The position numbers were made by a program, and so were the translations under genes. Of a DNA stretch of 21,879 nucleotides, positions 11,764 to 18,463 are shown one piece after another (the first letter of the stretch is position 1; each line of letters starts with the position of its first letter). The DNA is taken from positions 1 through 21,879 of the IMG/VR virus record IMGVR_UViG_3300042868_003165; one strand, written 5' to 3'. This stretch comes from a virus. Below the pieces are notes generated by a model. That model saw only the letters and a program-made list of their open reading frames with translations. It was not told the origin of the DNA and searched no databases.

Positions 11764-11930
11764 GAATGTTTATTTTATCCCTTGTCTGTATTGTATTAAG
11801 TGGGTTGGGTTACGGGTGGTTAATTGTGCATCACCCGTATGTGGCCCAGTGCATCGGAATGTCGATGGTGGGGTTGGGTGGTGTCATTTGGATTGTTGTG
11901 ATGTTTAACGCAATAAAAAGGGGGCAATGA
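11760..11930 (+). CDS. 56-residue two-pass membrane protein
   Basis: Short gene from ATG 11760 (ATGA overlap, 11760-11763) to TGA 11930. Two hydrophobic segments: about 3-22 (MFILSLVCIVLSGLGYGWLI) and about 34-50 (MSMVGLGGVIWIVVMF), joined by VHHPYVAQC, and a basic end (KRGQ). Topology would place both ends in the cytoplasm. The function is unknown: a small holin-like or exclusion protein is possible. The stop lies inside a GC-rich hairpin (11920-11937). Confidence 0.72.
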   Translation: MRMFILSLVCIVLSGLGYGWLIVHHPYVAQCIGMSMVGLGGVIWIVVMFNAIKRGQ

Positions 11931-11937
11931 AGCCCCC
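11920..11937 (-). terminator. GC-rich hairpin, terminator-like on the minus strand
   Basis: GGGGGC (11920-11925), AATGAA loop, GCCCCC (11932-11937). On the + strand no T run follows. On the - strand it is followed by TTTTTATTG, the form of an intrinsic terminator, although no minus-strand gene is credible here. It may instead stall or protect the upstream mRNA 3' end. Confidence 0.4.
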
Positions 11938-11948
11938 CATCCTATGAT

Positions 11949-11981
11949 ATGACAAATAACAAACGGATTGTGCAAATATAG
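11949..11981 (+). other. Short reading frame resembling the start of the 14560/14793 genes
   Basis: Ten codons, M-T-N-N-K-R-I-V-Q-I, then TAG. The first 16 bases match the starts of the genes at 14560 and 14793 at 14 of 16 positions, and all share the MTNNK start. It may be a remnant of another family copy, or just a leader. Confidence 0.3.
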
Positions 11982-11992
11982 GTTTTTTGATT

Positions 11993-12000
11993 TATATTTG
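11993..12000 (+). promoter_or_regulatory. -7 element in front of the structured RNA
   Basis: TATATTTG fits TAnnTTTG. The best -33 candidate is ATTG at 11967-11970 with a 22-base spacer, longer than usual. Transcription would begin near 12006. Confidence 0.5.
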
Positions 12001-12005
12001 TAGGG

Positions 12006-12104
12006 TATTACAGTTATGTCGCAGATAACTTGGAAAAATCTTTACAACCTCATTCTTTGTTTGGCACTGCGACCGCCATTCGAAGTCTGAGGTTTTATTT
12101 TTTT
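12006..12104 (+). ncRNA. Candidate small RNA with two hairpins and complementary loops
   Basis: Hairpin 1 has stem AGTTAT (12012-12017) / ATAACT (12025-12030) and 7-nt loop GTCGCAG (12018-12024). Hairpin 2 is long: AACCTCA (12046-12052) / TGAGGTT (12088-12094), an internal loop, CTTTG (12055-12059) / CGAAG (12081-12085) with one wobble, a small internal loop, TGGC (12062-12065) / GCCA (12075-12078), and 9-nt apical loop ACTGCGACC. Seven of those nine bases, CTGCGAC (12067-12073), are the exact reverse complement of loop 1, so a 7-bp kissing interaction is possible. A U-rich tract (12093-12104) follows hairpin 2 directly, giving it the form of an intrinsic terminator. A -7 element lies just upstream. 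It may be a free small RNA or an attenuator leader for the gene at 12105. No known family was recognised. Confidence 0.65.
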
Positions 12105-12335
12105 ATGAAATACACAACCCAAACCAGAGTAGAAAAGAATTATTGCATTATTGAAGTTTACAGAGACCACGAATGGTGGCTTACTTACGATTTTCATTTA
12201 GACAAATTGTATTACGACAACCAAGGTAGAAACATTTATTCAGACCTTGAATGCAAACATTGGGGAACGCCCGAAAACATCCAAGAAATTGACAATTCAA
12301 TTTTGAAAAACTTATTATCGAGGAACCATGTCTAA
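12105..12335 (+). CDS. Small protein of unknown function downstream of the structured RNA
   Basis: 76 residues from ATG 12105, placed directly after the U tract; an in-frame TTG at 12030 would run through both hairpins and is rejected. Aromatic-rich and probably beta (TTQTRVEKNYCIIEVYRDHEWWLTYDF, LYYDNQGRNIYSDLE). No recognised motif. Its last 8 bases overlap the replisome-organiser gene. If the upstream hairpin terminates transcription, this gene and the replication genes after it would depend on read-through or on antitermination. Confidence 0.68.
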   Translation: MKYTTQTRVEKNYCIIEVYRDHEWWLTYDFHLDKLYYDNQGRNIYSDLECKHWGTPENIQEIDNSILKNLLSRNHV

Positions 12336-12966
12336 AGATCCCGCATTCCTTTTTTATTCAAGTGACTTTTTAACGGGTACGATGTTTATGGACAACGACC
12401 AGGTTGGAAAGTTTATTCGATTGATGTGCGCCCAACATCAAAAAGGTAGGTTAACCAAAAAAGATATGTTAAAGATATGTGTCACACATGACGAAGATAT
12501 ATTTTCAAAGTTTGCCGTGGACGAGGCGGGTTTGTATTACAATGAAAGGTTGGAAGAAGAAGTAACCAAACGAAAGGCTTATTCTGAATCAAGGCGTAAT
12601 AATCGTAAAAAGAAAGAAGATGTGAATGACATATCTTTATCATATGTTCCACATATGGAAAATGAAAATGAAAATGAAAATGAAGTTAAAGATGAAGTTA
12701 AAGATAAACCAGTTGATAAACCAAAAACAACAAAGGTATTCACCAAGCCAACCATTGATGAGATTGCGGTTTATATGGATGAAAAAGGAATGAATAATGT
12801 TGCAGAGCGTTTTTATCATCACTACGAAGCGAAAGGGTGGAAAATTGGAAAAGAACAAATGAAAAATTGGAAATCATGTGTTATCACTTGGAAGGATGGT
12901 AACTTAAAAACCGCCACGGCGACACAACCAACACAAAAAAGATTTAATATCGCGGACTATGAATGA
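12328..12966 (+). CDS. Replisome organiser / replication initiation protein
   Basis: 212 residues. Residues about 3-95 (PAFLFYSSDFLTGTMFMDNDQVGKF..., RLMCAQHQKGRLTKKDML..., ERLEEEVTKRKAYSESRRNNRKKK) match the N-terminal winged-helix-like domain of phage replication proteins of the DUF1376 type. A repeat-rich acidic linker (about 105-135, NENENENE and VKDEVKDK) joins it to a C-terminal domain (about 138-198, FTKPTIDEIAVYMDEKG... AKGWKIGKEQMKNWKSCVITWK) usual for replisome organisers that load the DnaB-type helicase. It sits directly before that helicase and overlaps it by 8 bases. It should bind the phage origin and recruit the helicase; origin-like repeats occur within its linker DNA. Confidence 0.78.
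   Translation: MSKDPAFLFYSSDFLTGTMFMDNDQVGKFIRLMCAQHQKGRLTKKDMLKICVTHDEDIFSKFAVDEAGLYYNERLEEEVTKRKAYSESRRNNRKKKEDVNDISLSYVPHMENENENENEVKDEVKDKPVDKPKTTKVFTKPTIDEIAVYMDEKGMNNVAERFYHHYEAKGWKIGKEQMKNWKSCVITWKDGNLKTATATQPTQKRFNIADYE
12641..12705 (+). repeat. Palindrome and iterons within the initiator gene; candidate replication origin
   Basis: CATATGT (12641-12647), TCC, ACATATG (12651-12657) form a perfect 7-bp inverted repeat. It is followed by four tandem GAAAAT units (12658-12681) and two tandem GAAGTTAAAGAT units (12682-12705). Origins inside initiator genes, between DNA-binding and partner-binding domains, are known from lambda O. The repeats also encode a plausible acidic linker, so coding slippage is the alternative. 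Confidence 0.4.
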
Positions 12967-14227
12967 CAATATCGAGGATTACATCTTGGGGCAATTATTG
13001 TATTACCCCCAAGCCCAGGCACTTTTGCCACGCATCAAGCCCAATTGGTTTGATGGAGTTTTACACAAACACATCGTGGAACAAATGATTGAAAAGTATT
13101 TTAACAACGATCCAATTGATTACATGAGTTTGTCCAAAGGTTTAACACGGGAACAAATAGCGTGGATGGTCCGCATTGGAAACGATGTTTATCACGCATT
13201 CAATGTGCCATCGTACTTACCCAAGTTGGAACAAAAGTTTTTGAAAAAACAATTCATCGAGGAAATTGAAAAGTTGGATTTTGCAACCGATTTGCCAAAC
13301 TTGATTACACAGACCCAAAATGTAATTGACAACACACAGTTCACAACGATACACGACCCCGAATCCATCCACAAGGTGAGTGCCAAGGCATTGGATAACA
13401 TAACCGAAGCCATTGCCCGTGGTGTAAGCATAACGGGTAAGCCAACGGGGTGGAAATCATTGGATCGGATATTGGGTGGATGGAACGCGGGTGATTTAAT
13501 CGTCATGGCGGCAAGACCAGGAATGGGAAAGACGGCATTGGCCTTATCGCTTATTTATGAATTTGGCAAGTTGGGTGGCAAAGGTTTGATTATCAGTTTG
13601 GAAATGAGTTCCGAGCAATTGGCAAAAAGATACTTTTCATTATTGACCGATATTGTAAATTGGAAGATACGAAACGCCACATTGCGGGAACATGAAATTA
13701 CCCAATTGTGTGAATCGGTAAACAAAAGCGATGTGGAGTTTTTTGTGGATGAGGAACCAAACGCATCAATCCAACAAATAAAATCAAAGGCAAAAATCCA
13801 CAAAGCCAAACACGGGTTGGATTTATTGGTCATTGATTACATTCAGTTGATGAAGGGATCAAAGCAAAACCGCGAACAAGAAATTGCCGAGATATCACGC
13901 GGGTTGAAATTGTTGGCAAAGGAATTACAAATCACGGTTATCGTATTGGCCCAGTTATCACGGAAGCCAGAAGATAGGGCAGACAAACGCCCCATGTTAA
14001 GTGACATTCGGGAATCGGGTGCGATTGAGCAGGATGCGGATGTGGTTATGTTCCCCTTCCGACCCGCTAAATACGAAGCAATGCAACCCGAAATCGAGGA
14101 TGCGGAATTAATTATTGCCAAGAACCGACACGGGGAATGCAGTATCATCCCAACCACATACATCGGTAACCGCACTTTGTACAAAGAAAATATCGAACCA
14201 AAAATTTCATCACCTTTTGAATTTTGA
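12959..14227 (+). CDS. dnaB: Replicative DNA helicase, DnaB family
   Basis: 422 residues. The N-terminal domain (about 1-105) is short and helical. The RecA-like motor domain starts near 160 (TGKPTGWKSLDRILGGWNAGD). Walker A is ARPGMGKT (185-192), the SLEMSSEQLAKR motif is at 213-224, Walker B is LLVIDYIQLM (289-298, Asp293), and QLSRKPEDRADKRPMLSDIR...EQDADVV (332-363) holds the sensor and the intersubunit arginine region. It is slightly shorter than E. coli DnaB (471), the difference being mostly at the N-terminus. It should unwind DNA 5'-3' as a hexamer at the phage fork, loaded by the protein encoded just upstream. No primase domain was seen. Confidence 0.96.
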   Translation: MNDNIEDYILGQLLYYPQAQALLPRIKPNWFDGVLHKHIVEQMIEKYFNNDPIDYMSLSKGLTREQIAWMVRIGNDVYHAFNVPSYLPKLEQKFLKKQFIEEIEKLDFATDLPNLITQTQNVIDNTQFTTIHDPESIHKVSAKALDNITEAIARGVSITGKPTGWKSLDRILGGWNAGDLIVMAARPGMGKTALALSLIYEFGKLGGKGLIISLEMSSEQLAKRYFSLLTDIVNWKIRNATLREHEITQLCESVNKSDVEFFVDEEPNASIQQIKSKAKIHKAKHGLDLLVIDYIQLMKGSKQNREQEIAEISRGLKLLAKELQITVIVLAQLSRKPEDRADKRPMLSDIRESGAIEQDADVVMFPFRPAKYEAMQPEIEDAELIIAKNRHGECSIIPTTYIGNRTLYKENIEPKISSPFEF

Positions 14228-15193: not shown

Positions 15194-15543
15194 AACACCT
15201 TGAAAGCCGTATGCAAGTGCAATGTGTAAAGTGGTTTCGACTACAATACCGCCAAATGGGGGATTTATTAATCCATGTTCCTAATGGCGGATCACGCGAT
15301 TTGCGAACGGCCCAAAGGTTAAAAGCGGAAGGGGTTATCCCAGGGGTTTCGGATTTGGTGTTGTTTATGCCCAACCTAACCCACCACGGGTTATTCATTG
15401 AGTTAAAAATCAAACCGAATAAACAATCCGAACATCAAAAGAAGTGGCAATTGATGGTTGAGGCCATGAATTACAAATATGTGTTGGTATATTCGTTTGA
15501 TGATTTTATTGTGCAAATAGAAAGTTACTTTGATAACGCTTAA
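15190..15543 (+). CDS. VRR-NUC domain nuclease (PD-(D/E)XK fold)
   Basis: 117 residues, a stand-alone VRR-NUC domain. Motifs: HLESRMQVQCVKWFR at the N-terminus (Glu5 region), LLIHVPNGGSR (26-36), GVIPGVSDLVLF (48-59, catalytic Asp55), and GLFIELKIKPNKQSEHQKKW (67-86, with Glu70 and Lys72 as the E-x-K pair). Stand-alone domains of this kind cut branched DNA such as Holliday junctions and flaps. In a phage they may resolve replication or recombination intermediates before packaging. Start in an ATGA overlap; the last 14 bases overlap the sigma-like gene. Confidence 0.9.
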   Translation: MKHLESRMQVQCVKWFRLQYRQMGDLLIHVPNGGSRDLRTAQRLKAEGVIPGVSDLVLFMPNLTHHGLFIELKIKPNKQSEHQKKWQLMVEAMNYKYVLVYSFDDFIVQIESYFDNA

Positions 15544-16138
15544 CGATATCGCCAAACGCCACATTGAATGGATTAAAATAGCCAAATACTTAGGTGCGAA
15601 TCGTGATGAGGTCGATGATATGGTACAAACGATGTATTTGAAGTTGGGGGAAATACAAATCAAAGAGGGTTCGCTAAACAGATTCGCCAATTACAACGGA
15701 ACCATCAATACCATCTATCTTTTCAAAATGCTACACAATGCGTTTATAGACATCAAAAGGGCGGAAAACAAGACAATACCACACCAAGACCAATTCAACC
15801 CCGTAGAAAGCCCCGAAATGGCTGAAATGGCCCACATGGACTTGATGGGTGAAGTAAAGAAAGCAATTGACGACCTTCGCGATTATGACCAGATGTTATT
15901 GGAACTGCATTTTGTGTACGGACATTCGATGCGTGACATTGAAAAAAAGACGGGCATTCCAACCCATAGTGTATTTAACTCAATCAAAAACGCGAAACAA
16001 TTTATCAAACAAAGAACAACGGTAAAATATAAAATTTATGCAGAAGAAAAACGAAACACGGAAGAAGTACACCGAATCACGACCATCCATCGGGGTGGGG
16101 GATACGATAGCGAAGGTGACCAAAGCCACGGGGATTGA
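15530..16138 (+). CDS. Sigma-70-like (ECF-type) transcription factor
   Basis: 202 residues with TTG as the likely start: the next ATG (residue 31) would remove part of the region-2 domain, so the TTG at 15530, overlapping the nuclease gene by 14 bases, is preferred. Region 2 is at about 20-80 (RDEVDDMVQTMYLKLG, then LFKMLHNAFIDIKRAEN). Region 4 is at about 112-160 (LRDYDQMLLELHFVYGHSMRDIEKKTGIPTHSVFNSIKNAKQF), a typical helix-turn-helix. Such a factor could redirect host RNA polymerase to phage promoters; the CGTTTTATA motif before three start codons is one possible target. The last 101 bases overlap the next gene in another frame, so the true C-terminus is less certain. A sigma-like DNA-binding protein without polymerase contact is the alternative. 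Confidence 0.72.
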   Translation: MITLNDIAKRHIEWIKIAKYLGANRDEVDDMVQTMYLKLGEIQIKEGSLNRFANYNGTINTIYLFKMLHNAFIDIKRAENKTIPHQDQFNPVESPEMAEMAHMDLMGEVKKAIDDLRDYDQMLLELHFVYGHSMRDIEKKTGIPTHSVFNSIKNAKQFIKQRTTVKYKIYAEEKRNTEEVHRITTIHRGGGYDSEGDQSHGD

Positions 16139-16780: not shown

Positions 16781-17292
16781 ATACTTGGAAAAAAATATTA
16801 AATGTCAAAGGGGATTATGAGGTTAATGAACTTGGTGATGTCCGTGTTGTATTAAAAGATAAACGCCAGAGAAGTGGCGAGTATCGAATGTTAAGTGGAT
16901 CTATTTATAACAATGGATACATTTATTACAAATTAGATAATGCAATTAGATTTTCAAAGCATAGATTAATTGCAATGTATTTTATTGACAACCCATTAAT
17001 GAAATCACAAGTCAATCACATAGATGGGAATAAATTAAATAATTCAATAACCAATTTGGAATGGGCAACACCAAAAGAAAATGCCATTCATGCTTGGGCA
17101 ATTGGTTTGCAAAAAGTTAGTGAATATCAAAAGCAACAAGTCATTAAAAGACAAAATAAACAGACATTGGATTTGAGAACGGGAGTTGTTTATGATAGTT
17201 TGAAACAAGCGTGTGAATCCGCAAATGTAAACACATCAAGTGTTCGGGTGCGATTGCATAAAAATACCGAAACTAGATTTTTATATGTATAA
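16777..17292 (+). CDS. HNH homing endonuclease (NUMOD4-HNH-IENR1 layout)
   Basis: 171 residues from ATG 16777. N-terminal NUMOD4-like part (about 2-30, WKKILNVKGDYEVNELGDVR). HNH core: FSKHRLIAMYFIDNPL (59-74), then VNHIDGNKLNNSITNLEWAT (79-98) and the Asn in ENAIHAW. C-terminal IENR1/NUMOD1-like helix-turn-helix (about 130-165, LDLRTGVVYDSLKQACESANV). This is a standard free-standing homing endonuclease. It is A+T-richer than its neighbours and sits between the HTH gene and the methyltransferase gene, apparently at the latter's start codon. A longer reading from 16720 would run through the HTH gene and is rejected. Confidence 0.93.
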   Translation: MNTWKKILNVKGDYEVNELGDVRVVLKDKRQRSGEYRMLSGSIYNNGYIYYKLDNAIRFSKHRLIAMYFIDNPLMKSQVNHIDGNKLNNSITNLEWATPKENAIHAWAIGLQKVSEYQKQQVIKRQNKQTLDLRTGVVYDSLKQACESANVNTSSVRVRLHKNTETRFLYV

Positions 17293-17302
17293 AACTAAAC
17301 AA

Positions 17303-18463
17303 ATGATAATTGAAATTAAGAAAATATCGGAATTAACACCCGCCCCGTATAACCCCAGGGAATCAACGGAAAAACAAGAATCGCAGTTAAAACAATCCCT
17401 TAAAAAATTCGGAGTTGTTGAACCAATTATTTACAATAAACAAACGGGGTACATTGTCGGTGGGCATTTTAGGGTAAGGGAGTTGCAAAAATTAGGGTAC
17501 ACCGAAATCGAATGTGTTATTGTGGATTTGTCGGAGGAAGATGAAAAGGAATTAAACATTAGATTAAACGCAAACACGGGTCAATGGGATTGGGATGAGT
17601 TAGCAAACAACTTTGAGTTGGAGGACTTGAACGATTGGGGTTTAGAGGTTCCAAACATGAAACACGAATTGGAAGCCGAGGAAGATGATTTTGATGTTGA
17701 TGCGGATGGCATTGAAACCGATATTGTGTTGGGTGATTTGTTTGAGATAGGCGAACACCGATTGTTGTGTGGTGATTCCACAGATAGTGATGCGGTTGCA
17801 CGATTGATGGATGGGCAGAAAGCGGATATGGTGTTTACCGACCCTCCGTATAAAATAGAAACCGATGGTGGCGCAAAAGGAGATATTGGCAAGGCGTTAA
17901 GAAAGCAAGGAAAAGACATTGAATTTATTGCGGAATTCAATCCTTTGGAATTTTTACAAATTTTACCATTGGTATTTGATAAAAATATGAATGCGTATAT
18001 TTTTTGCAATAATGAGTTATTGCCAGATTATTTAATTTGGGCAAGAGATGCTGGGTATTCATTTAATGTTTTAATTTGGAAAAAGCCAAACGCAATACCC
18101 ATTAATTCAGCGCACAGACCAGACATTGAATATATTTTGTTATTTCGCAAATCATCAATTTGGAATTATGGGTTACAAGATGTTAATTATTCAAGATGTT
18201 TAGAATTTGCAAGGGAAAGCGGATTGCACCCAACAATGAAGCCAATTGAATTAATTGCAAATGAAATGAAGATAAGTTCCCACGCAAATAGTTTGGTGTT
18301 TGATTTCTTTTTAGGTAGCGGATCAACAATGGTTGCATCACACCAACTTAAACGCAAATGTTATGGAATGGAACTTGACCCAAAGTATTGCCAAGTGATT
18401 ATTGACCGAATGAAAAAGTTAGACCCCACAATTAAAATTAAAAGAAACGGAGTTGAATTATGA
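17303..18463 (+). CDS. ParB-like nuclease domain fused to an adenine/cytosine-N4 DNA methyltransferase
   Basis: 386 residues from ATG 17303 (ATG 17285 is an alternative, overlapping the HNH stop). Residues about 4-95 form a ParB/sulfiredoxin-like domain (LTPAPYNPRE, SLKKFGVVEPIIYN, YIVGGHFRVREL). An acidic linker (about 120-140) leads to a beta-class methyltransferase: DIVLGDLFEIGEHRLLCGDS (140-159), catalytic DPPY (180-183), HPTMKPIELI (309-318), and the SAM-binding FFLGSGST (335-342). It should methylate the exocyclic amino group of A or C in phage DNA. The fusion is widespread in phages. It may protect against host restriction or work alongside the Mom-like enzyme. The central part (about 17900-18340) is more A+T-rich than the ends. 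The stop overlaps the next gene as ATGA. Confidence 0.92.
   Translation: MIIEIKKISELTPAPYNPRESTEKQESQLKQSLKKFGVVEPIIYNKQTGYIVGGHFRVRELQKLGYTEIECVIVDLSEEDEKELNIRLNANTGQWDWDELANNFELEDLNDWGLEVPNMKHELEAEEDDFDVDADGIETDIVLGDLFEIGEHRLLCGDSTDSDAVARLMDGQKADMVFTDPPYKIETDGGAKGDIGKALRKQGKDIEFIAEFNPLEFLQILPLVFDKNMNAYIFCNNELLPDYLIWARDAGYSFNVLIWKKPNAIPINSAHRPDIEYILLFRKSSIWNYGLQDVNYSRCLEFARESGLHPTMKPIELIANEMKISSHANSLVFDFFLGSGSTMVASHQLKRKCYGMELDPKYCQVIIDRMKKLDPTIKIKRNGVEL

Follow-up and report, generated by a model that had tools for sequence, protein, structure and literature searches.

A 21,879-base stretch of a virus record, hereafter the window, carries directly ahead of its replication genes a short two-hairpin RNA whose loops are complementary to each other over seven bases, and the changes seen in its relatives leave us in hardly any doubt that it represents a real family of structured RNAs in which loop-loop pairing is under selection. 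Genes for a terminase, a portal protein, a DnaB helicase and an amidase mark the window as a tailed-phage fragment. Two features, the 51% identity of the terminase to those of Flavobacterium psychrophilum phages and an RNA promoter of the Bacteroidota type TAnnTTTG, point to a flavobacterium or a relative as the probable host; phages carrying the RNA family probably infect Bacteroidota. The same phage also encodes a Mom-family DNA modification protein (PF25680, 20146–20805), a ParB-N6/N4 methyltransferase fusion (17240–18463) and a candidate transcription regulator with weak matches to sigma-70 region 4 and antitermination Q (15530–16138). The elements of the RNA and of the operon behind it are the following:

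11968–11970, + strand: TTG of the -33 element, 22 nt upstream of TAnnTTTG
11993–12000, + strand: TATATTTG, Bacteroidota -7 element (TAnnTTTG), read from the sequence
12005, + strand: predicted transcription start (G), fifth base after TAnnTTTG
12012–12030, + strand: hairpin 1, 6 bp, minimum-energy fold; the stem covaries in relatives (5 of 5 modelled pairs with two-sided changes)
12018–12024, + strand: loop 1, GTCGCAG, 7 nt, complementary to loop 2; fold and covariation
12031–12045, + strand: linker, 15 nt; fold
12046–12094, + strand: hairpin 2, three tiers, with terminator-type base AACCTCA/TGAGGTT; fold
12067–12073, + strand: loop 2, CTGCGAC, within the apical loop of hairpin 2; fold and covariation
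12095–12104, + strand: T-rich tract (U run of the predicted intrinsic terminator), running into the ATG at 12105
12105–12335, + strand: first gene of the operon, 76 aa
12328–12966, + strand: primosomal/replication-initiation-like protein, 212 aa (PHROG 15768, 1e-18; PHROG 3992, primosomal protein, 2e-4)
12959–14227, + strand: DnaB-like replicative helicase, 422 aa (PHROG 19, 1e-89)

The two-hairpin fold claimed in the original prediction is exactly the minimum-energy fold of 12006–12104, with an energy of -25 kcal/mol against -14.9 ± 3.1 in shuffled sequences (z = -3.3), of which 1 in 200 folded as well. The perfect 7-nt complementarity of the loops proved correct to the base, with no further occurrence of GTCGCAG or its complement anywhere in the window, and the TAnnTTTG element upstream and the U-rich tract after hairpin 2 are both present in the sequence. 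A coding explanation was rejected, as the TTG-start ORF at 12030–12335 overlaps the RNA merely by extending the 76-aa gene upstream, and in relatives the bases of the RNA obey pairing rules. The interval separating the RNA promoter from the upstream genes contains a G/C-rich hairpin (GGGGGC...GCCCCC, 11919–11938), terminator-like on the minus strand only, and many relatives have similar hairpins.

Querying IMG/VR with two proteins encoded behind the RNA returned about 90 loci, nearly all of which carry a homologous RNA upstream of replication genes. In these relatives an RNA of about 95 nt occupies the same place, after a TTG/TAnnTTTG promoter and ahead of the replication operon's initial ATG. 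Twelve sequences, none of the window type, served to train a covariance model, which matched once in each of 79 sources out of 91 and recovered the window at E = 0.006; across 24 whole records it gave one match or none per record. Two DNA patterns run across all of IMG/VR added further loci, for a total of about 180 RNA places that are not all independent. Some members depart from the common plan. At L169 (50–240) and, on the reverse strand, at L150 and L199, an extra small hairpin, GGTGGCAACGCC, stands between the two kissing hairpins; this variant precedes a Toprim primase-helicase operon and has the loops GTCGGAG/CTCCGAC and GTGGAAG/CTTCCAC. The far relative L087 (approximately 2655–2800) keeps the same plan without sequence similarity, with loops TGGAACC/GGTTCCA and a longer linker. 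Upstream of a replication gene, L085 and L088 have an RNA of another kind, likewise with promoter and terminator, in which GACTAC lies close to the 5' end and GTAGTC is part of the terminator hairpin; it is perhaps an analogous but unrelated element.

Among cellular sequences, no convincing match was obtained under strict filters in 697 genomes from the family and phylum of two Bacteroidota, a search whose model scores the window's own type weakly and which leaves absence unproven; the single cellular-genome match, L241, turned out to be a plain terminator. The RNA was not found in the phage isolates Fpv5, BT2, BV57P1, BU183P1, PM116P2 and TCUEAP1 or in a 4-kb stretch of a Porphyromonas phage, and two alleles, compared by blastn with 50,697 phage records, gave no match.

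When compensatory changes were searched for, as had been proposed with the original prediction, both loops and all stems proved to covary. An alignment of 40 distinct sequences shows 94.5% pairing in the loop-loop helix and contains 65 two-sided changes there, a count that relatedness inflates, and none of 500 shuffles matched the observed covariation; shifting the loop register by 1–3 columns lowers pairing to 24–49%. Two-sided changes fall at 5 of the 7 loop-loop pairs, as expected of kissing loops, the first of the seven being missing in some types, and at 16 of 17 modelled pairs of hairpin 2. Because the alignment was fitted to the stems and the loop pairing was not used, the loop count is independent of the fit. 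At least 14 distinct 7-nt loop pairs were found, a number that relatedness does not affect, and every one is complementary: GTCGCAG/CTGCGAC, GTACGAG/CTCGTAC, GTGCGAG/CTCGCAC, GTTGCAG/CTGCAAC, GTTGCGG/CCGCAAC, ATTGCGG/CCGCAAT, GTAGCAG/CTGCTAC, GTAGAAG/CTTCTAC, GTAGGAG/CTCCTAC, GTAGGCT/AGCCTAC, GTCAGAT/ATCTGAC, GTGCAAG/CTTGCAC and the two of the variant with the extra hairpin. Pairs of 6 nt also occur (TCGCAG/CTGCGA, TGCGGG/CCCGCA and, with one G-U pair, TGCGGG/CCCGTA). As the loops always match while their letters change, it is the match itself that matters. Covariation of a single sequence does not tell pairing within a molecule from pairing between molecules. By rough geometry, the seven loop pairs and the stems would stack to about 30 bp or about 85 Å, which a linker of 15–20 nt would barely span, so kissing inside one molecule appears possible but strained, and kissing between two molecules may be easier.

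A TTG stands 17–25 nt 5' of TAnnTTTG at 189 of 200 homologous sites, and TAnnTTTG is kept at loci where the RNA allele was exchanged. Since the TAnnTTTG consensus occupies positions -12 to -5 relative to the start site in F. psychrophilum (PMC9723704), transcription would begin at about 12005; the structured RNA unit originally proposed was thus retained, with a small correction of its start from 12006 to a predicted 12005. A purine, G or A, fills the predicted +1 position in 199 of the 200 homologous sites, and in many relatives an outer stem (GUUAAC...GUUAA) opens with this base. Most alleles measure about 90–97 nt up to the U run, including a linker of approximately 15–20 nt with a conserved U-rich stretch ahead of the C-rich base of hairpin 2. 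In relatives the U run stops 0–15 nt short of the first ATG, with no gap at all in 112 sites, so that no promoter fits between them and any mRNA for the first gene has to pass through the terminator. A predicted intrinsic terminator (hairpin plus U run) lies between the promoter and the first ATG of the operon, the sequence arrangement of an attenuator, and we infer that the locus is both transcribed and terminated.

As had been claimed, replication genes lie directly behind the RNA; where the 76-aa gene is missing (L020 and L083), the next gene directly follows it. A replication module was found behind the RNA wherever enough sequence is present, and its proteins vary: a DnaB helicase after primosomal-like, DUF6291, helix-turn-helix or other first genes, a BT4734/VapE-type primase-helicase (L132), or a Toprim primase-helicase (L150, L169 and L207). 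With so variable a module downstream, the RNA belongs to the entrance of the operon rather than to any single Rep protein. For one such protein to exert autoregulation here is unlikely, as the same alleles of the RNA recur in front of unrelated replication genes. In some relatives, HNH/NUMOD4 or GIY-YIG endonuclease genes sit exactly between the RNA terminator and the first replication gene (L033, 2477–2998; L040, L055 and others; L201, 3904–4203), as if this junction were a homing site of inserted endonuclease genes. No PF00589 integrase was detected in 19 contigs, which are possibly incomplete, the control being positive in 14 of 14 genomes; judged by integrases, the one marker of lysogeny covered, a lysogeny switch is unlikely and a role in lysogenic immunity gains no support.

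The reading we lean towards, with somewhat more confidence than doubt, is that the RNA is a self-terminating leader (attenuator or sRNA) of the replication operon with the loop-loop pairing as its functional core, and it probably acts as a switch for phage replication. A host sigma-A promoter would start the transcript at about 12005, hairpin 1 would fold first and the long hairpin 2 next, and the base of hairpin 2 together with the U tract would act as an intrinsic terminator that reaches up to the first ATG. There the majority of transcripts would end as a short RNA, with read-through or relieved termination giving the replication mRNA. Kissing of the two loops, the putative selected core, would most likely set the closure of hairpin 2 and hence the frequency of read-through, and finished copies may compete in trans for the kissing contact, resulting in allele-specific feedback on the replication genes. 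Terminator function, control of read-through and any action in trans are what we infer from these arrangements. Among the roles originally offered, that of attenuator is a possible one, beside free sRNA and dimer. A conserved antiterminator fold (pairing of the 5' end to the foot of hairpin 2), sought by eye across alleles, was not recognised, and, against an attenuator, kissing could instead serve stability, dimerisation or protein binding.

Comparison of closely related records showed how the RNA itself varies. Among 114 record pairs in which promoter and gene interior are both at least 85% identical, the RNA falls below 75% identity in 18 and the gene start in just 2; in 15 of the pairs an RNA below 75% accompanies a gene start of at least 90%, and the reverse (gene start below 75%, RNA at least 90%) never occurs. 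Nine kinds of allele exchange were distinguished (e.g., promoter 100%, RNA 69%, gene 97%), near-identical phages with exchanged alleles having identities of up to 100% in the promoter, about 97% in the gene and 50–72% in the RNA; the window allele and that of L028 share 95% in the flanks and 55% in the RNA. Judging from these identities, it is the RNA alone that is exchanged or rapidly replaced, which fits a specificity element, and recombination without selection could also account for it.

Such exchange bears on a tentative alternative, in which the RNA recognises itself in trans: its loops would pair with those of other copies, as a homodimer or on a nascent leader, setting a compatibility type and restraining replication in co-infecting phages that share the allele, as in ColE1 incompatibility. 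Loop pairs that always self-match yet differ between alleles would be expected from it, as would different alleles in near-identical phages (the 15 pairs, with none the other way, and the nine kinds of exchange), and in ColE1 diversified RNAI/RNAII loops do alter plasmid compatibility (PMC9458437). However, drift and recombination with pairing kept predict exchange and variation equally well, and neither a second complementary transcript nor extra target copies were generally found in the contigs. In its fullest form, which we likewise regard as speculative though worth stating, the loops would constitute a self-matching code, recognising each other in trans, so that each allele senses its own RNA only, gates the replication operon and defines compatibility groups among co-infecting virulent phages, with the cassettes exchanged under diversifying selection.

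A third copy of loop 1 lies just behind the terminator and before the next ATG in L033 (2466–2472, also at 2262 and 2838) and L040 (2465–2470), two lineages that both carry HNH genes. It is absent from the window and from most lineages, and in L039, which has another RNA allele, it is mismatched and thus not kept on allele change. These copies, together with the RNA's own predicted promoter and terminator, would suit a free regulatory sRNA that uses loop 2 to act on mRNAs of the host or the phage and stands before the replication genes only incidentally; we consider this unlikely, since the site is conserved across unrelated replication modules, the third copy is confined and lost as described, and loop-1 copies in 11 phage records gave no clear enrichment across whole contigs beyond the local cluster in L033. 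More improbable still is an origin RNA, whose transcript would prime or open a replication origin beside the replication genes: the constant position at the start of the operon, ahead of replication proteins that can be exchanged for one another, agrees with it, but the strong terminator hairpin and U tract favour release and paired loops need no DNA role. An ordinary strong terminator with a chance hairpin and loops without a role, suggested by the terminator look of hairpin 2, is contradicted by the loop-loop covariation (40 distinct sequences, 0 of 500 shuffles) and by the 14 or more loop pairs, all matching, and deserves practically no credence.

What emerges is a phage RNA family with unusually clean loop-loop covariation, spread widely among uncultured phages and placed just where the replication genes begin. 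Should the RNA govern the entry into replication, apparently virulent phages would possess a timing or copy control at the RNA level. The exchanged self-matching loop alleles could serve as ready-made orthogonal kissing pairs, and they allow a direct test of RNA specificity between co-infecting phage genomes.

The family is absent from Rfam and was previously unlisted. The Rfam search suggested at the outset gave no match among the 4227 families of Rfam 15 for the window and eight relatives; a relaxed threshold returned chance-level matches only, far below gathering scores (E 0.77 and higher), and the C4 covariance model (RF01695) matched neither the window nor the eight relatives. No such RNA was found in the open-access literature, subscription papers and preprints lying outside this search.

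In ColE1, the 7-nt loops of RNAI and RNAII pair along their full length. The comparison with this system made originally holds for the loops and fails for the transcripts, as the ColE1 partners are sense and antisense RNAs of opposite strands, whereas here both loops lie on one transcript with apparently no antisense transcript involved; in all relatives they are read off one strand, enclosed by a single promoter and a single terminator. In the phi29 pRNA, identical copies join to one another through their loops. The phage-linked GOLLD and ROOL RNAs share this property (PMC12286853). These RNAs are much larger or packaging-related, whereas the RNA described here leads into the replication operon, some 7 kb away from the gene for the terminase, and has no Rfam match. 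The putL and putR elements of HK022 also form a two-hairpin RNA after an early phage promoter; put RNA, of about 70 nt, suppresses termination (PMC9378689), whereas the present RNA ends in a conserved terminator hairpin and its loops pair.

By analogy, the nearest known system in logic is the P4 CI RNA (seqA-seqB-seqC), which acts in lysogeny from the leader of the replication operon and terminates by pairing with seqA and seqC (PMC4825925). CI is processed from a longer leader and is a lysogeny factor, whereas the RNA here has its own predicted intrinsic terminator, both pairing partners are hairpin loops and no integrase was found in the contigs. Of the partner copies that flank CI on both sides as seqA and seqC, the upstream one always has a counterpart in loop 1, the downstream one in the L033 and L040 types only; there the third loop-1 copy behind the terminator recalls seqC, a likeness that is not general. 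Common to both are self-complementary segments in one leader, for which premature termination is proposed, and, as also in the C4 RNA of P1 and P7, a short RNA placed in the untranslated leader of a replication operon.
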